Part shown: piece after piece, positions 6,225 through 22,356 of the stretch
Layout of the letters: every line of letters begins with the position of its first letter
Numbering within the stretch: the stretch's first letter is position 1
DNA from: a virus
IMG/VR virus record: IMGVR_UViG_3300044630_000946
Coordinates: 1 to 25,226 of that record
Length of the DNA: 25,226 nt
Direction: 5' to 3' (one strand)
Program-made: the position numbers and the translations under genes
Notes under the pieces: generated by a model
The model's database searches: none
Told to the model about the DNA's origin: nothing
What the model saw: only the letters and a program-made list of their open reading frames with translations

Positions 6225-7409
6225 ATGATATTAAGAAATCCAACTGAAGTATTTTTAGTTAGTTTATTAATTATTTTTTTACTCCCATATTTATTTTGGA
6301 AATTTTTTAAAACAGACAATTATATGCCGTTGGCAGTAGTTCAAATTGTATCTGGAATTATTCTTGGACCAGGAGTACTTGGAAAACAATTTCCAGAATT
6401 CTATAATACAGTATTTACAGAAGACAATATCAAAGTTTTAAGTGGAATAGCCTGGTGGGGCGTAATGTTATTTGTCTGGACTGCTGGTGTTGAATTAAAT
6501 TTAAAAGAAGCAATTACTAAAAAGAAAGATACATTGGTAACATCTGTCTTTGCTTTGTTGACTCCTTTATTCTTTGGTTCTATTCTTGCATTAATTATTT
6601 CAAATTATCCTGGATGGAAAGGTAGTGATGCTAGTACATGGCAGTTTACTTTTGGAATTGGAATGGCTACAGCAGTAACAGCATTGCCAATTCTAATTCT
6701 TCTTATGGAAAAACTTGGAATTTTTAATAAAGAATTAGGTAAAAGAACATTAAGATATGCAAGCCTGGATGATATTTTTATTTGGGCAGTACTTGCTATT
6801 ATTATTATGGATTGGCAAAGAGTTATTAGACAAATAATTTTCTTACCAATATTTATATTATTTTCTTATTTGTTAAACAAACTTATTGCAAAAGTTTCAG
6901 AACCTCGTGATCGCTGGTCAATAGCAATGCTTTGGATTATCTTAGTTGGGTTTGCAGCAGACTGGTCTGGACTGCACTATATGGTTGGTGCATTCCTTGC
7001 TGGAGTAACAATGAAACCTGAATGGTTTAATAAAAATGAAATGCAAATATTTAGAAATAACATACTTTTAATTCTTATGCCAGTATTTTTTCTTATTACT
7101 GGTTTAAAAACTGGTTGGTCTGTATCTGGTACATTGGTAATATTTGTTGCTATTATTTTATTAATTGTACAATTTATGTCAAAGGTTTTAGGAGTTTTAG
7201 TTGCTGGAAAAATTCTAAAGTGGAAAAAAACAGATGCTTTTATTATTGGAGTATTGCTCCAAACAAAGGCTTTAATTGAAATTATTTTTTGTACAGTTTT
7301 ATTGGACAAAGGAATAATTACATCTCAGATGTTTACTGCACTATTAATAATGGCAATATTAAGCACAACAAGTACTATGCCAATAACAAGGAGGTTAATT
7401 AAAAAATGA
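6225..7409 (+). CDS. CPA2-family cation/proton antiporter (phage-encoded)
   Basis: A 394-aa polytopic membrane protein with roughly 11-13 hydrophobic segments. The pattern fits the monovalent cation:proton antiporter-2 family: VSGIILGPGVLG near residue 42, an unwound-helix-like GIGMATAVTALP (144-155), and ASLDDIFIW with a double aspartate at 182-183, the ion-binding pair of electrogenic members such as NapA/NhaA. K348 in QTKALIEII could be the partner lysine. There is no C-terminal TrkA domain. It would exchange Na+ or K+ for H+ across the host inner membrane. The ATG directly follows the preceding stop with an AGAGGA Shine-Dalgarno, and the 3' end overlaps the next gene by ATGA, so it is embedded in the replication operon. 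Family clear; ion specificity unknown. Confidence 0.88.
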   Translation: MILRNPTEVFLVSLLIIFLLPYLFWKFFKTDNYMPLAVVQIVSGIILGPGVLGKQFPEFYNTVFTEDNIKVLSGIAWWGVMLFVWTAGVELNLKEAITKKKDTLVTSVFALLTPLFFGSILALIISNYPGWKGSDASTWQFTFGIGMATAVTALPILILLMEKLGIFNKELGKRTLRYASLDDIFIWAVLAIIIMDWQRVIRQIIFLPIFILFSYLLNKLIAKVSEPRDRWSIAMLWIILVGFAADWSGLHYMVGAFLAGVTMKPEWFNKNEMQIFRNNILLILMPVFFLITGLKTGWSVSGTLVIFVAIILLIVQFMSKVLGVLVAGKILKWKKTDAFIIGVLLQTKALIEIIFCTVLLDKGIITSQMFTALLIMAILSTTSTMPITRRLIKK

Positions 7410-8901: not shown

Positions 8902-9460
8902 CCCAAAAACAATTTGTGCTATTGACGCAAGCACTAACAGTCTTGCTTTTGCTATTTTTAATAATAATGTCCTAGGCAGTATTGGTAAAATTAATTTTAA
9001 TGGAAAAACAAATTATGAAAAGGTAATGGACGCTTGTGCTAAGACAAGGGCATTTTTTGAACATTTTGGTGGGTTTGAAGCAATCATAATTGAGCATACC
9101 GTATTTATGAACAGTCCCAAGACTGCTGCAGATCTAGCATTGGTTCAAGGGGCACTGCTAGGTGCTGCTGGACTAACTGGAACAAAAGTTATAGGAACTG
9201 TATCACCAATAACTTGGCAAAATTATTTAGGAAATAAAAGACTAACAAAAGAAGAGCAGTTAATTATTAGATCAGCAAACCCTGGAAAATCAGTTTCTTG
9301 GTATAAAACATACGAAAGACAAATAAGAAAAGAAAGAACAATAAAACTAATTGAAATTAACTATGATAAAATTATTAACGACAATGACGTTGCTGATGCT
9401 TGTGGCATCGGCCATTGGGCTATTAATAACTGGGATAAAGCAATAGGAGAGAGTAAATAA
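8888..9460 (+). CDS. RuvC-like Holliday junction resolvase / RNase H-fold nuclease
   Basis: A 190-aa protein with the RNase H-like acidic residues in RuvC order: D13 in CAIDAST, E69 in AIIIEHT, and the D167/D170 pair in NDNDVADA ahead of a C-terminal helix (GIGHWAI). Length is close to RuvC (about 170-190 aa). The ATG at 8888 is preferred over the TTG at 8882 because AAAAGGA lies about 9 nt upstream of the ATG but only 3 nt from the TTG. It would cut four-way junctions before packaging or during recombination. The stop overlaps the halogenase ATG by 1 nt (TAATG), so the two are translationally coupled. Another structure-specific RuvC-like nuclease role is possible. Confidence 0.8.
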   Translation: MNKDNPKTICAIDASTNSLAFAIFNNNVLGSIGKINFNGKTNYEKVMDACAKTRAFFEHFGGFEAIIIEHTVFMNSPKTAADLALVQGALLGAAGLTGTKVIGTVSPITWQNYLGNKRLTKEEQLIIRSANPGKSVSWYKTYERQIRKERTIKLIEINYDKIINDNDVADACGIGHWAINNWDKAIGESK

Positions 9461-10920
9461 TGAAAAATGTAAAAAGTTTAACTGTTGTTGGCGGTGGAAC
9501 TGCTGGTTTAATATCTGCACTTATTTTAAAACAACGTAGCAGTTTAGACGTTAACTTAATTTATTCTTCAAATATTGGCATTATTGGTGTCGGTGAAGGA
9601 TCTACAGAGCATTTTAATAACTTTATGGAATTTGTTGGAATAAAGCCAAGCGAAATTATTAAAGAATGCGACGCAACTTTTAAAATAGGGGTTATGTTTG
9701 ATAATTGGGTAACTAATAAAAAATATTTACACTCAGTTGGTGAACCATTTGGCACAAGGTTTGGACCGTATTATGCAATTTATGCAAAACAAATTTCTGA
9801 AAATTCAGACCTTCTTTGTTCAGATAATCTTGAAAAAAATTTAGTTAATGTAAATTCCTTAAACGTAAATTTAAATCCACCAACCAACCAGTATCATTTT
9901 AACACCTTTAAATTAAACGAGTTTTTAAAAAAAATAGCGTTAAACAAAGGAATTAAACTTTTTGATGATGAAATTATTGACGTTAAACTAGAAGAAAATG
10001 GATTCATTAAAACATTAGTTGGGAAAAAAACAGAATACAGCAGTGACTTTTATATAGATGCAACTGGATTTCAAAAAACTTTAGTAAATAAATTAGAGGT
10101 TAAATGGAAATCTTTTAATAAATATTTAACATTAAATTCTGCTATTACATTTCAAACAAAAGATGAAGATAATTATAACTTTTGGACTTTAGCAAAAGCA
10201 ATGAAATCTGGTTGGAGATTTAAAATACCAACATGGGGCCGCCATGGAAATGGGTATATCTATGACAATAATTTTATTACTGCTGACAAAGCAAAGTTAG
10301 AATTAGAAGAAGAACTTGGTTATGAAGTAGAGATTGGAAAAACATTTAATTTTGATCCAGGCGCACTGGAAACAGTCTGGAATAAAAATTGTGTTGCTAT
10401 AGGCTTAAGTGGAAGTTTTTTTGAACCACTTGAGGCAACCTCTATTGGCTTAAGCATTCAGCAAAGTTTTTTGTTAATGGATAAAATTCAAAACTACGAT
10501 GACAAAGTGATAGAGTCTTATAATAATTCTTTTAATTCTATTGTTGAAAACATAAGAGACTTTGTTGTTTTGCATTATTTAACAAAAAGAAATGACACTG
10601 ATTTTTGGAAAAATATCTTAAATTTAGAAATACCAGAATCATTAAAAAATAATTTAGAAAAATGGAAAACAAAACTACCTACGGGTGAAGATTTTCTCAA
10701 TGTTTCAGGTTACTCAATGTTTGGACCACAAAATTTTATTAAAGTAATGCATGGTCTAAATTTATTTGACAAAGAAGCAATTCTAAAAGAATACAACTTT
10801 TTATCAAATGATTATAGGTCTGCTGCAAATCAAATGATTAATGATCATTTACACAGCCAAAGTTCGTCTAACTTTATGAATCATAAAGACATTCTTAGAG
10901 TTATTAGGGAGTATAACTAA
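9460..10920 (+). CDS. Flavin-dependent tryptophan halogenase family protein
   Basis: A 486-aa member of the tryptophan halogenase family, close in length to PrnA (about 530 aa). An FAD-binding GGGTAG (11-16) is at the N-terminus. GVGEGSTEHF (43-52) and ATFKIG follow; K75 is in the position of the catalytic lysine. The family WxWxIP motif appears as WRFKIP (252-257), with the second Trp replaced by Phe. FFEPLEATSI holds E322 at the place of the second catalytic residue. Known members use FADH2, O2 and halide to halogenate Trp or other aromatic substrates and need a separate flavin reductase; none is seen here. Relatives occur in some marine cyanophages. Fold confident; substrate and activity unknown. 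Confidence 0.85.
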   Translation: MKNVKSLTVVGGGTAGLISALILKQRSSLDVNLIYSSNIGIIGVGEGSTEHFNNFMEFVGIKPSEIIKECDATFKIGVMFDNWVTNKKYLHSVGEPFGTRFGPYYAIYAKQISENSDLLCSDNLEKNLVNVNSLNVNLNPPTNQYHFNTFKLNEFLKKIALNKGIKLFDDEIIDVKLEENGFIKTLVGKKTEYSSDFYIDATGFQKTLVNKLEVKWKSFNKYLTLNSAITFQTKDEDNYNFWTLAKAMKSGWRFKIPTWGRHGNGYIYDNNFITADKAKLELEEELGYEVEIGKTFNFDPGALETVWNKNCVAIGLSGSFFEPLEATSIGLSIQQSFLLMDKIQNYDDKVIESYNNSFNSIVENIRDFVVLHYLTKRNDTDFWKNILNLEIPESLKNNLEKWKTKLPTGEDFLNVSGYSMFGPQNFIKVMHGLNLFDKEAILKEYNFLSNDYRSAANQMINDHLHSQSSSNFMNHKDILRVIREYN

Positions 10921-10923
10921 AAA

Positions 10924-11568
10924 ATGCCAGAGTTAAATGCAAACATACCACCAATACACTGTTACGTAAGGGGTAATTATTTAAGAAATCATAAAGATAG
11001 CCATGATAAATACTTTGAGTGCGTAGTCTTTGGTGTTTCAAGTTTAAAATCTAGAAGCCCACTATTTCATATTATGATGCCAGATGGTGGCCTATGGTGG
11101 AGACTTCCAATTTCTGCTTTTTGTACAGAGCCAGGAGTGCCCGAAGTTGATCTACATAATTTAGTTTTGTGGAATTCTTTTAGTCATCACATTGCTGTAA
11201 CTCAATTTGAAAATCTAACCAACCTTAGAATGTCTTATATAGACAGAACAAAAACAATGAATAAAGGCACTTATCTCTTTACATTAGACTGGCACAATCC
11301 AGATACAAATGTTTTAGATGATGGATATTCTGAAAGTCCTGCAGACCACAAGTGTGGGCATGTCATTCAAAGAGATGATGGAAATTTCGCAATTCAGCCC
11401 AACAACAGGGTAAGAGTTTATGAGCCTTCATTTACCTTGGAAAAAGAATATCTAATTGACAGAATAATTAATGAAAGAAAATATGATGTAGAAAATCAAG
11501 ACAAGTGGATAATGGAAAACTCTGATAGATTTAACTATGATATTAATTTAAACGAAGTTGACAAATAA
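10924..11568 (+). CDS. Conserved phage protein of unknown function
   Basis: A 214-aa soluble protein starting 3 nt after the halogenase stop. The N-terminus (PPIHCYVRGNYLRN, residues 9-22), the GGLWWRLPISAF segment and a tyrosine/aspartate-rich tail resemble uncharacterised proteins I recall from cyanophage and pelagiphage genomes. No membrane segment, signal peptide or catalytic motif stands out; several His, Cys and Trp residues are scattered. It sits between the halogenase homologue and a packaging-related HTH gene. No function can be assigned. Confidence 0.75.
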   Translation: MPELNANIPPIHCYVRGNYLRNHKDSHDKYFECVVFGVSSLKSRSPLFHIMMPDGGLWWRLPISAFCTEPGVPEVDLHNLVLWNSFSHHIAVTQFENLTNLRMSYIDRTKTMNKGTYLFTLDWHNPDTNVLDDGYSESPADHKCGHVIQRDDGNFAIQPNNRVRVYEPSFTLEKEYLIDRIINERKYDVENQDKWIMENSDRFNYDINLNEVDK

Positions 11569-16146: not shown

Positions 16147-18867
16147 TTGACTAGCCTCAAGCGCAAAATATTATTGGCTTTGGGGGTAGGTCTATGTTTA
16201 ACAATTTTTGGCATTATGGCGCCTAACGAGGCCTATGCTACTGACAATCAAGAGCAGGTAATTGTTAGCCCTGCTCAGCAAGCAGTTGATACAGCCCTTG
16301 CAACGGCTACTACAGAGGTTCAACAGGCTATTGCAGCCACAGACACTGCCACAGCCACCATAGCCGTAGCAGTTGCTGAAAGGGTAGAGGCTCAAGCAGC
16401 AGTAGACACATTAACAGCCACAGTAGCGGTAGCACAATCAAATGTAGCCTTAGTAGACACAGCCACCGCAACAATTAATGCTATAGATTTATCTGTTACG
16501 CCAGTAGATCAAAGTTCACAGGTAGTCCAAGATGCAAAAAATACAATTACAACAGCCCAAACCTCTATAAATAATATTGATACATCAACTGCACAAGTAC
16601 AAATATCTGAAGTTATTTTAGCAAAAACAGAAGCATCTACAGCACAAGCAACTGCTCAAACCGAACTAACTCAAGCCAACATTGCAATTGATAATGCTCA
16701 GACAGCAGTGAATAATTTACAAGCCACTATTGGAACTAGCACTAATGTTCTTGCTGGCGTAGACGATGCTGGCGTTAAAATGAATCTTCCATTCGGAATG
16801 CAAATGGGTGGAACTTTATATAACAATGTATTTGTTGGGTCTAATGCAACTATAACATTTGGTGTCAACGAAGGTCCTAATTATTATTCTACTCCAAGTG
16901 CACCATCCGTATCTATTGCAGGTTGGGACTGGACAACTTGGAGTACTGGAACGGGAATTACATATGCAACAACTGGTACAAGTTTAGATATTGCATGGGA
17001 CCTTCGTCCTTATCCACAACAGGATGCTTCAACACAAATGGTTCAAGTAAGATTTAATGCTGATGTTAATCCAAATGATGGTGCTTGGATAGCAAGTGTA
17101 ACTGCTAATGGACCAATACCTAATGGAGCAAGATTTAATTATAGAGAAACAACTAATGGAACGGTAACAGAAATTACTAACACTAATGCTGGTACTGGAT
17201 TTACTGGACAAATAAGTCAAGGTGCAGAGTTTACTCCATATGTAGACCCAAATACTTCAACAATTCAAGCAGCAGTAGATTCTGCAAACGCTACAATTGC
17301 ACAATTAAACTCAAGCCTTACTCCAGTTGTTGCTCAAAACACTACAAATACATCAGCAATAAATGCTATTAATACAACATCTTTAACTAATACCGTAAAC
17401 TCAGCGGTATCTAGTAAAACAAATTTACAAACACAATTAAATACAAATGCTCAAGAGTTAATTACAGCAATTAGCACCAACATTCCTACTCCTGCTCCAG
17501 TAATTTTAGAAACAGTCGTTCAGGGTACAACAGTTACCATAGCGCCAGAACTTCCAACAGGGTATGCAGCAAATACTTGGTTTTATCAGGTAGAAACTGA
17601 AGATCCTAGTGCAGAAAATCCATATGAAGGTGGTACTTATAATACAAGTGGTGCTCCAGAATCTATTGAATTAACTGGTTTGACACAAGGTGCTACATAT
17701 TCTATTAGAGTTGCTAACTGGTCAGGGCCTGTAAGTGAATATGCAGAAGTCGTTGTTTCTATACCAGCACCACAAGGTTCTAATTTAACTACTGGAGGTT
17801 CAATTAATACAACTCCTGTAGATACAACTCCAATTGATACAACTCCTGTGTACACAGAACCAATTAATACAACTCCTGTAGATACAACTCCAATTGATAC
17901 AACTCCTGTAGATACAGAACCTATAAACACAGAACCAGTTGAGACTGAACCAATTAACACAGAGCCTGTAGACACAGAGCCTGTAGACACAGAACCAGTT
18001 GAGACGGAGCCTATAGATACAGAACCAGTTGAGACGGAGCCTATAGATACAGAACCAGTTGAAACTGAACCCATTAATACAGAGCCTGTAGAAGAACTTT
18101 CAGTTAGCGAAGAGGCAGAAGTTGTATTTGAAGAAAGCGAAGCCTCTATTGAAGAAATATCAGAAAGTGGTGCAAATCTTTCTGTAGAAGATGTTGAAGA
18201 AATTGTTACTGATTTAATTAGTGATAGCACTTTAGATGCATCTGAGGTTTCTGCAGTACTAGAAGCAATTGCTGAAGGTGGAGAAGTGTCTGCAGAAATT
18301 GCTGCTGAAGTATCTGAATCTTTATCAGAGGGCGGACTAACAGAAACAGAAGCAGCATTTATTACAGAAATGCTTTCTGCGGATGGAGAAATAACAACTG
18401 CAGAAGTTGTTAATTTATCTGAAGCCTTATCTGAAGACGGCAAGTTTACTTTGGCAGAAAAAGATTTAGTTGCAGATGTGTTGGTGTCATCAGCAGAGGG
18501 AGAACCAGTAACTGCTGCAAACATAGAATCGGCGGGACTTGAATATCGTGATCTTCCTCCATTAATACCAGTAGAAGTAAGAGAAGATGCTAACGGTAAC
18601 CCTGTTGTTATTAATGCAGAAGTGGCTTCAGCATTGCTTGTACTAGAAAATCCAGCAGCATTATTAGATGCAGTTGCTACTTGTTTTAATCCAGATGAAG
18701 CAATTGAAGGTTTGACAGAAGAGCAAAAATGTGAGTTAGGCAAAGCCTTGCTTAGCATAGGTGCTGATATGTCTATTCCAGAACGTGAAAAAGCAGAAGA
18801 TATTGTGGTTGTAACAATTATTGCTGGTCAAATAATTGTTGCTGCTGCACCTAGAAGAAGGAGATAA
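16147..18867 (+). CDS. Large exported, C-terminally anchored multidomain protein
   Basis: A 906-aa protein starting at TTG (GGAG 11 nt upstream). Order of parts: signal peptide (1-31, cleavage near AYA); Ala/Thr/Gln/Val-rich coiled-coil (about 35-195); beta domain (about 195-360) with NLPFGMQMGGTLYNN and GWDWTTW segments; second coiled-coil (about 370-460); fibronectin-III-like domain (about 465-550); 20 imperfect pentapeptides of the form (V/I)(D/N/E)T(T/E)P (about 552-648); acidic helical region (about 650-860) with two cysteines; and a hydrophobic segment (VVVTIIAGQIIVAAA) ending in four arginines. The end fits a membrane anchor with a cytoplasmic tail. It would decorate the host envelope. 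A virion fibre is less likely given signal and anchor. Function unknown. Confidence 0.75.
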   Translation: MTSLKRKILLALGVGLCLTIFGIMAPNEAYATDNQEQVIVSPAQQAVDTALATATTEVQQAIAATDTATATIAVAVAERVEAQAAVDTLTATVAVAQSNVALVDTATATINAIDLSVTPVDQSSQVVQDAKNTITTAQTSINNIDTSTAQVQISEVILAKTEASTAQATAQTELTQANIAIDNAQTAVNNLQATIGTSTNVLAGVDDAGVKMNLPFGMQMGGTLYNNVFVGSNATITFGVNEGPNYYSTPSAPSVSIAGWDWTTWSTGTGITYATTGTSLDIAWDLRPYPQQDASTQMVQVRFNADVNPNDGAWIASVTANGPIPNGARFNYRETTNGTVTEITNTNAGTGFTGQISQGAEFTPYVDPNTSTIQAAVDSANATIAQLNSSLTPVVAQNTTNTSAINAINTTSLTNTVNSAVSSKTNLQTQLNTNAQELITAISTNIPTPAPVILETVVQGTTVTIAPELPTGYAANTWFYQVETEDPSAENPYEGGTYNTSGAPESIELTGLTQGATYSIRVANWSGPVSEYAEVVVSIPAPQGSNLTTGGSINTTPVDTTPIDTTPVYTEPINTTPVDTTPIDTTPVDTEPINTEPVETEPINTEPVDTEPVDTEPVETEPIDTEPVETEPIDTEPVETEPINTEPVEELSVSEEAEVVFEESEASIEEISESGANLSVEDVEEIVTDLISDSTLDASEVSAVLEAIAEGGEVSAEIAAEVSESLSEGGLTETEAAFITEMLSADGEITTAEVVNLSEALSEDGKFTLAEKDLVADVLVSSAEGEPVTAANIESAGLEYRDLPPLIPVEVREDANGNPVVINAEVASALLVLENPAALLDAVATCFNPDEAIEGLTEEQKCELGKALLSIGADMSIPEREKAEDIVVVTIIAGQIIVAAAPRRRR
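17801..18092 (+). repeat. In-frame tandem repeats encoding a (V/I)(D/N/E)T(T/E)P rod
   Basis: Two 60-nt units (17801-17860 and 17861-17920) differ at three positions by eye. Two 30-nt units (18001-18030 and 18031-18060) are identical. The unit length is a multiple of 15 nt throughout, so the reading frame is kept. The product is a proline-spaced, increasingly acidic stalk inside the 906-aa protein. Confidence 0.9.
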
Positions 18868-20330: not shown

Positions 20331-20855
20331 ATGACAGTATTAGCCGTTGCTCGCCATGAAGGAAAAATCTTTATGGCTGGTGATCGTGGTGCCTCTGATG
20401 ACAATACAATTCTTTCTTTAACTGCGCCAAAGGTTTGGAAACTTGGACCATATCTAATTGGATATGCTGGAGCATTAGATGGTGAACGTATTCGTTACAA
20501 TTTTAATCCATATGTTCCAGATATTAAAGACACAGACAAGTTTATGCAAACTAAATTTATCAAACAACTTAGAGATTTTTATAATAACTGGTGGGTAGAC
20601 ACATCTAAAGAGGGTGATCTTGGTCTTATTATTTGTATTAGAGGACAGATATACGAACATAGTTCTGTAGATATGTCATTGTCAAAATATAATTTAGATT
20701 ATTTAGCAATGGGATCAGGTGCAGAATATGCATACGGATACTTAAATGCTACAGAAAACTCTAAGGATGCTCGTAAAAGGGTTGTTGGAGCAGTAAATTC
20801 GGCAATAAAGTTTAGTCCATCTTGCATGGGACCAGTTGACGTAGTAAGCATTTAG
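20331..20855 (+). CDS. Proteasome-beta/HslV-like Ntn hydrolase
   Basis: A 174-aa protein with the sequence hallmarks of proteasome beta subunits and HslV. Thr follows the initiator Met, so Met removal alone would expose it as the N-terminal nucleophile. Counting that Thr as 1, Asp falls at 17 (MAGDRGAS) and Lys at 33 (TAPKVW), exactly the catalytic spacing of these enzymes. GYAG and GSGAEYAYG (GSG at 128-130 from Met) match the conserved core, followed by an A-x-AI helix and a SPSCMGPVDV end like the family C-terminus. Length is near HslV (about 174 aa). There is no propeptide. No partner ATPase gene is seen. Role unknown: degradation, maturation of phage proteins or interaction with the host proteasome. 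Confidence 0.8.
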   Translation: MTVLAVARHEGKIFMAGDRGASDDNTILSLTAPKVWKLGPYLIGYAGALDGERIRYNFNPYVPDIKDTDKFMQTKFIKQLRDFYNNWWVDTSKEGDLGLIICIRGQIYEHSSVDMSLSKYNLDYLAMGSGAEYAYGYLNATENSKDARKRVVGAVNSAIKFSPSCMGPVDVVSI

Positions 20856-21718: not shown

Positions 21719-21792
21719 GCGGATATTGCATAGTGGTAGTGCGTAACCTTGCCAAGGTTAATGTGTGGGTCCGATTCCCGCTATCCGCTCCA
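21719..21792 (+). tRNA. tRNA-Gly (GCC)
   Basis: Acceptor GCGGATA pairs with TATCCGC. The anticodon arm TAACC-TTGCCAA-GGTTA gives anticodon GCC. The T arm GTGGG-TCCGATT-CCCGC pairs with one wobble. The D arm GCATAGTGGTAGTGC is present. The terminal CCA is encoded (21790-21792). Confidence 0.93.
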
Positions 21793-21793
21793 A

Positions 21794-21865
21794 GGCCCCA
21801 TCTTCTAGTGGTCAGGATACCAGGCTTTCATCTTGGTGAGCAGAGTTCAATTCTCTGTGGGGCTA
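21794..21865 (+). tRNA. tRNA-Glu (TTC)
   Basis: Acceptor GGCCCCA pairs with TGGGGCT (first pair is G-T). The anticodon arm CCAGG-CTTTCAT-CTTGG gives anticodon TTC. The T arm carries GTTCAATTC. It starts 1 nt after tRNA-Gly, so both are probably cut from one transcript. No CCA is encoded (ACAAAG follows), unlike its neighbour. Confidence 0.92.
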
Positions 21866-21873
21866 CAAAGTTC

Positions 21874-21882
21874 TGATATAAT
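21874..21882 (+). promoter_or_regulatory. Extended -10 promoter for hsp20
   Basis: TGA-TATAAT directly downstream of tRNA-Glu. The predicted start (6 nt on) is 21889, exactly the first paired base of leader hairpin 1. The 13-nt core TCTGATATAATAA recurs identically at the promoter before 23921. Confidence 0.7.
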
Positions 21883-21888
21883 AATGTT

Positions 21889-21939
21889 GTATCTGCCAAA
21901 TGGGGATACATTAACTTATTCGCTTGAAAGGGGAATAAA
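21889..21939 (+). promoter_or_regulatory. Hsp20 5' leader: predicted two-hairpin RNA thermometer (ROSE-like)
   Basis: Hairpin 1 (21889-21909): GTATC pairs with GATAC, plus a T-G pair, a bulged G (21895) and two C-G pairs closing an AAAT loop. Hairpin 2 (21916-21938): TTATTC (21916-21921) pairs perfectly with GAATAA (21933-21938), then an opposed G-G (21922/21932), then CTT (21923-21925) with AGG (21929-21931) and a GAA loop. Hairpin 2 buries the whole Shine-Dalgarno (AAGGGG, 21928-21933) and ends 1 nt before the AUG. UCGCU at 21920-21924 fits the U(U/C)GCU element that masks the Shine-Dalgarno in ROSE thermometers, including the G-G mismatch. Paired bases were read by eye; no folding energy was computed. 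Confidence 0.6.
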
Positions 21940-22356
21940 ATGGTAACACAGTTTGCAATGGATCTATTCAATGATCCTTTTTTTATTGGCTTTAACAGAG
22001 AGTTAGGCCGTTTAAATACAGCACATAAAGTAAATTCACAATCATATCCTCCGTATGATCTTCTTAAATTAAATGAAGATACATATAGGCTGTCTCTTGC
22101 TATTGCAGGATTTACAAAAGAAGATATTGATGTATCAGTAGACAATGGAACCCTTGTAATTAAGGGAGAAATTGTAGAGGTTACAGATGCCGAAGTTGTT
22201 CACAAAGGAATTGCTGGTCGTAAATTTGTACGATCTTTTGCTTTGGGTGAATATATGGAAGTATCTAGTGCTGAACTAAAAGATGGATTACTAACAATTA
22301 ATGTTGTTCGTGTCATTCCTGAAGACAAAAAACCTAAAGTAATTAAAATAAAATAA
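21940..22356 (+). CDS. Hsp20 small heat-shock protein
   Basis: A 138-aa alpha-crystallin-domain chaperone, like IbpA in length. The domain (about 38-130) shows YPPYDLLK, YRLSLAIAGFTKEDIDVSV, the family LVIKGE strand, the GRKFVRSFALGEYMEV segment and LKDGLLTINV (the A-x-x-x-n-G-v-L signature). The C-terminal VIKIK contains the I-x-I motif that mediates oligomerisation. It would hold unfolding proteins in the host cytoplasm, perhaps assisting virion assembly. Hsp20 genes are known in marine T4-like cyanophages. It forms its own unit: extended -10 promoter, structured leader, single gene, terminator at 22370-22398. Confidence 0.93.
   Translation: MVTQFAMDLFNDPFFIGFNRELGRLNTAHKVNSQSYPPYDLLKLNEDTYRLSLAIAGFTKEDIDVSVDNGTLVIKGEIVEVTDAEVVHKGIAGRKFVRSFALGEYMEVSSAELKDGLLTINVVRVIPEDKKPKVIKIK

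Follow-up and report, generated by a model that had tools for sequence, protein, structure and literature searches.

The leader of the hsp20 gene in a 25.2-kb fragment of phage DNA from IMG/VR (a virus record; the whole stretch analysed, 25,226 nucleotides long, is referred to as the window) is probably a phage-carried, short, two-hairpin ROSE-like translational control element, opened most likely by heat. Direct support for this reading comes from the anatomy of the leader, its conservation and covariation, its strict association with hsp20 and its likeness to the RNA thermometer of Pseudomonas ibpA. What is new here is the presence of the ROSE class in phages, and its commonness there. The coordinates are collected in Table 1; those of the -10 element, hairpin 1 (H1), hairpin 2 (H2), the Shine-Dalgarno (SD) sequence and the start codon were verified base by base.

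Table 1. Features of the hsp20 leader and its surroundings in the window.
Feature	Position	Strand	Sequence	Basis and remarks
tRNA-Gly	21719-21792			upstream of hsp20
tRNA-Glu	21794-21866			upstream of hsp20
Extended -10 promoter element	21874-21882	+	TGATATAAT	sequence
hsp20 leader	21889-21939	+		forms H1 and H2
H1	21889-21909	+	GTATCTGCCAAATGGGGATAC	fold; at predicted mRNA 5' end
H2	21916-21938	+	TTATTCGCTTGAAAGGGGAATAA	fold; masks SD
ROSE U(U/C)GCU anti-SD motif	21920-21924	+	UCGCU	sequence; motif definition PMC3669281
Extended SD	21926-21933	+	GAAAGGGG	core AGGGG 21929-21933
hsp20	21940-22356	+		ATG at 21940; 138-aa small heat-shock protein (alpha-crystallin); Pfam PF00011 (HSP20), E=7e-18

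The DNA polymerase III alpha and the terminase encoded in the window are closest to those of Streptomyces phages, with 53-55% identity, so that the host is likely to be an actinobacterium, as a preliminary description made from the sequence had supposed. The gap between the tRNA genes and hsp20 contains, in this order, the extended -10 box, H1 and H2; going by the promoter consensus, our guess is that transcription starts at 21889. H1 has a bulged G (G21895) in the arrangement U-[G]-CC loop GG-G, and H2 is laid out as UUAUUC-[G]-CUU GAA AGG-[G]-GAAUAA, with UCGCU facing the SD core across a single G-G mismatch (G21922 versus G21932). This is the anatomy that the preliminary description had put forward: the fold of 21889-21945 bears out its two hairpins, as does conservation in relatives, and its burial of the SD in the second, and the mismatch opposite AGGGG holds base by base. 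The comparison with ROSE elements on small heat-shock genes stands as well. Thus the leader is a 5' UTR directly before an Hsp20/IbpA gene, consists of two hairpins (ROSE-like elements have two to four) with the SD in the 3'-proximal one, and places both U(U/C)GCU and a mismatched G opposite the SD. The 5' arm reads UUAUUCGCUU and lacks the four U that face the SD in a fourU element.

How far does the window sequence alone take us? The segment 21889-21945 folds into the two hairpins at -13.9 kcal/mol (z=-2.72), a stability equalled in 2/200 shuffles. Among the 30 genes of the window, the SD-opening energy of hsp20 ranks third and its SD/anti-SD duplex, at -10.6 kcal/mol, is one of the strongest. 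Masking of the SD, judged from the single sequence, is modest and unexceptional: 66 of 1000 shuffles of the 5' part (6.6%) mask it equally. A score for unpaired SD bases between 4 and 50 C was discarded as uninformative because half of GAAAGGGG sits in the loop, and SD-opening energy was used in its place. The latter, as computed, falls from 8.8 kcal/mol at 25 C to 6.6 at 37 C and 5.7 at 42 C. The corresponding figures for the P. aeruginosa ibpA leader are 5.7, 4.5 and 4.0, making H2 of the window tighter at every temperature compared, which speaks against a simple reading of the leader as the thermosensor that the preliminary description had proposed; melting at lake temperatures is therefore not predicted. 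The remaining leaders compared, from cyanophages and other phages, all have lower values than the window, and only Mosig comes close. As nearest-neighbour parameters handle the G-G mismatch crudely, we take the higher opening energy as a reason for caution rather than as a refutation.

It is the comparative evidence, above all the exact H2 in front of hsp20 and the covariation in H1, that places the fold beyond chance. Among 80 viral contigs chosen by the similarity of their Hsp20 proteins, H1 undergoes free compensatory change and H2 is nearly invariant. The element TGNTATAAT is kept in 76/78 close hsp20 relatives, irrespective of upstream context. The exact 23-nt H2 lies directly 5' of the hsp20 ATG in 120/120 of the IMG/VR matches listed (at least 120 contigs), in front of Hsp20 proteins that diverge down to ~40% identity, and across 165 distinct leaders of the actinophage clade H2 is frozen in sequence. 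For H1, which we parsed by its inner pairs only, so that the outer stem provides an unbiased test, 413 of the 468 outer-stem cells from 78 distinct arms are paired, compared with 249±10.6 (maximum 283) when the 3' arms are shuffled and 178-277 when the register is slid. Double changes occur at all six outer pairs, at least 30 of them at each of five pairs and one at the innermost. When the 80 leaders are aligned by fitting them to a model, pairing holds in 97.1% of cells, and covariation scores 0.279 versus 0.092±0.007 after shuffling, a value that none of 500 shuffles reached. Covariation of the kind that the preliminary description had asked to see in homologous leaders is therefore present, strongly in H1 and, among distant relatives, in H2. 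H1 loops are often UNCG closed by a C-G pair. MAFFT alignments of the divergent leaders misregistered H1 and the SD and were used neither for models nor for statistics.

More distant hsp20 loci, likewise chosen by protein, share the same order of parts: a promoter, H1 with its bulged G (Y-[G]-CC...GG-G), YGCUU...AGGAG, and the ATG. A bulged G opposite the SD is present in H2 of these relatives, and the arms of H2 exchange bases while continuing to pair (for example GAC[G]CUC/GAGGUC, CUU[G]CUU/AAGGAG and UUAUUU/AAAUAA). Across 38 distinct arms we count 135 contiguous outer pairs, against 104±4.9 (maximum 122) after shuffling, a figure that is supportive but short of final since the shuffles leave relatedness in. 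In T4-like relatives the leaders stand behind TATAAATA late-promoter-like boxes; two of these phages (L231 and L237) carry a third hairpin, GCCG...CGGC, between H1 and the UYGCU element, and hence three in total. Isolates with the leader anatomy include the cyanophages P-SSM4, P-SSM3, S-SKS1, Sf-CH8, S-8S53, S-SCSM1 and DSL-LC02 as well as Mosig, HTVC008M and HTVC103P (Pelagibacter), Melnitz-3 (Methylophilales) and Phosso (Sinorhizobium).

The association with hsp20 is strict. A loose motif, YGCT...GGR, is found in 194/206 protein-selected phage hsp20 leaders and in just 29/500 other SD-bearing ORFs of the same loci; two Vibrio phages lack it. Trained on 80 leaders from the clade of the window, a covariance model (R2) returned 13 matches at E<=10 in 97 kb of loci from distant relatives and isolates, every one in an hsp20 leader. 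Twelve of the 13 finish within a few bases of the hsp20 ATG, the remaining one (L336) ending ~8 nt short, so that although the single E-values are weak (the best is 0.0064), the placement of the matches is not. A search for the exact H2 23-mer across 84,980 genomes gave a single match (L352, 5050-5478), which lies in a Chitinophagaceae MAG on a contig of 22.9 kb whose genes look phage-like. This may be a misbinned phage contig, and we dropped it as a host clue because a MAG contig with phage-like genes identifies no host.

Where does the leader stand with respect to the known ROSE families? The preliminary description had suggested a scan with ROSE models, and none of them matches the window: an all-Rfam search returned no ROSE hit even at E<=10, and per-genome searches with RF00435 and RF02523 gave no window match. 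Since the leader reaches the gathering score of neither ROSE (RF00435), ROSE_2 (RF01832) nor ROSE_3 (RF02523), we do not file it in any Rfam ROSE family. A match to the Rfam model freshwater-2 (E=1.7) was taken as chance. Relatives come closer. ROSE_3 scores 34.1 bits with the hsp20 leader of Melnitz-3 (E=1.6e-6 per genome), 27.9 bits with that of S-SKS1 (E=9.2e-5) and 24.8 bits with that of S-SCSM1, all below the gathering score of 43. Like that of ROSE_3, the phage H1 has CC directly after its bulged G and is closed by GG-G, and the bulged G is common to the ROSE_3 consensus, P. aeruginosa ibpA and the phage leader. Rhizobial hspA (ROSE1, RF00435) and E. coli ibpA (ROSE_2) resemble the window in carrying the UYGCU/SD core, with its non-canonical G-G, in the 3' hairpin, and in their small heat-shock gene, but have three to four hairpins.

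The closest known counterpart is the Pseudomonas ibpA RNA (ROSE_3; Krajewski et al. 2013, PMC3669281), a proven two-hairpin thermometer in which H2 melts, and alone suffices, and H1 stays closed (PMC3669281). For P. aeruginosa we used the leader at 380-465 of L349, an unverified record named 'Pseudomonas phage Y7' that may be host DNA. It scores 69.2 bits with ROSE_3 and has, at each ibpA position that Krajewski et al. cite, the base they give (CCGC 23-26, A35, C36, G39, C40, G51, G52, G54 and G64). Both leaders have only two hairpins in ~50-60 nt, share the bulged G of H1 (AU-[G]-CC...GG-GU), mask the SD with U(U/C)GCU in H2, leave the AUG unpaired and precede a small heat-shock gene. They differ in that the window gene belongs to a phage, probably one with an actinobacterial host, has A+U-rich stems, and sets a 1x1 G-G mismatch against AGGGG where Pseudomonas ibpA has a bulged G against AGGA; in addition, the window H2 is computed to be more stable and, of the two leaders, the ROSE_3 model matches only that of Pseudomonas.

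RNA thermometers have been described in phages before. The papers found name only lambda cIII, SPbeta blyA and a gut-phage sigma70 leader, of which none is ROSE-like and none belongs to a heat-shock gene (PMC10586365, PMC11182007); to speak of a new layer of phage regulation, as the preliminary description did, is therefore too strong. With cIII and blyA the window leader would share temperature-linked control of the translation of a phage mRNA. Unlike the window leader, however, cIII works through alternative structures that lower expression at high temperature, blyA is a fourU element, and both lack UYGCU and a heat-shock gene. The small heat-shock gene hsp17 of Synechocystis also has its ribosome site masked by a thermometer (PMC4477652), but this is a single hairpin that contains a 1x3 internal loop and no ROSE core. 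Two papers on small heat-shock proteins of cyanophages are silent on thermometers and untranslated leaders (PMC3827213, PMC5028025), and a search confined to the open-access literature yielded none that describes such a thermometer on a phage hsp20 gene.

How might the leader work? H1 would form at the 5' end of the mRNA as a stable folding or stability module, and H2 would pair UCGCU with the SD through weak pairs and the G-G mismatch. Closed at low temperature, H2 would bar the ribosome and keep translation low until it opens, most likely by heat in the manner of a zipper thermometer, at which point the chaperone would be made. Opening could be aided by a repressing Hsp20 that leaves the leader as misfolded protein builds up, as E. 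coli IbpA does. We infer repression, the temperature response and autorepression alike. Because hundreds of phages and Pseudomonas ibpA share the design, phages probably turn on Hsp20 synthesis when heat or stress melts the RNA; and because the window H2 is computed to open less readily than that of Pseudomonas ibpA, the natural trigger in the window's phage may be strong heat or the titration of an autorepressing Hsp20.

Several findings count against this explanation: no Rfam ROSE model matches the window, masking of the SD is unexceptional in the single sequence, H2 is computed to be tighter than in Pseudomonas, and in the actinophage clade it is frozen in sequence beyond what pairing requires, which a pure thermometer would not need. 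This fixation suggests a binding partner. Imagine, then, that the leader were mainly an autoregulatory operator, with Hsp20 binding its own H1/H2 and holding the leader closed until misfolded proteins titrate it during infection, temperature playing a minor part. We consider this unlikely. It would account for the frozen H2, as expected of a protein site, and for an H2 computed to be too stable for melting at mild temperatures, and it has a precedent in E. coli IbpA, which uses R93 and Y34 to keep its own ROSE leader repressed; R93 is reported not to be conserved in gram-positive IbpAs (PMC10474464). The residues aligned to these two in the phage Hsp20 are R94 and Y36, with R94 invariant in 13 proteins. 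However, R94 falls in a generally conserved alpha-crystallin segment; of the IbpA-type charges at 97 and 98, the phage protein has R98 aligned with the former but S99 in the place of K98, which is needed in E. coli; and distant relatives vary H2 freely as long as pairing is kept.

If, on the other hand, the leader sensed nothing, H1 might simply protect the mRNA 5' end while H2 set a constant low level of translation or was opened late by a phage or host factor. The position of H1 at the predicted transcript start, the frequency of UNCG loops and the late-promoter-like boxes of T4-like relatives would all fit, yet such a model, which strikes us as quite improbable, leaves unexplained the specific UYGCU/SD core with its bulged or mismatched G, why the element goes exclusively with hsp20 rather than with other late genes, and the ROSE_3 matches of relatives. 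A chance fold or alignment artefact, for which the weak single-sequence statistics on masking might speak, is barely credible, being ruled out by covariation and the other comparative results. Our best reading of the leader thus remains ROSE-like control of translation in the short, two-hairpin form of a phage branch, and we infer thermosensing.

A wider conjecture strikes us as possible rather than probable: that phage hsp20 genes generally carry thermometers of the ROSE class, which travelled along with the gene into phages that infect actinobacteria, cyanobacteria, SAR11 and methylotrophs, and that the actinophage branch combines a thermometer with an Hsp20-bound autorepressor, sensing the proteotoxic state of the host via its own mRNA. 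A ROSE-like leader conserved on the hsp20 genes of hundreds of aquatic phages would imply that phages commonly let temperature or protein stress decide when the chaperone is made, and cultured phages such as P-SSM4, S-SKS1, HTVC008M and Melnitz make such control readily testable. The role of H1 in ROSE elements is a long-standing question that the phage leaders open strongly to comparison: relatives preserve the bulged G of H1 while the H1 stem changes freely.

Elsewhere the window holds several further ORFs of note. The one at 20331-20855 weakly resembles proteasome subunits (PF00227, E=1.5e-4), its match falling just short of the cut-off. A 906-aa ORF (16147-18867) with a long T-P-(I/V)-(D/N/E)-T-(T/E)-P-like repeat, matching Pfam Extensin_1 below cut-off, is probably a repetitive surface or tail protein. 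The phage also encodes a sodium/proton exchanger of 394 aa (6225-7409; PF00999, E=1.5e-31) and, unusually for a phage, a halogenase of the flavin-dependent tryptophan-halogenase family (9460-10920; PF04820, E=3.3e-93), which is followed by a 214-aa ORF without a match (10924-11568).
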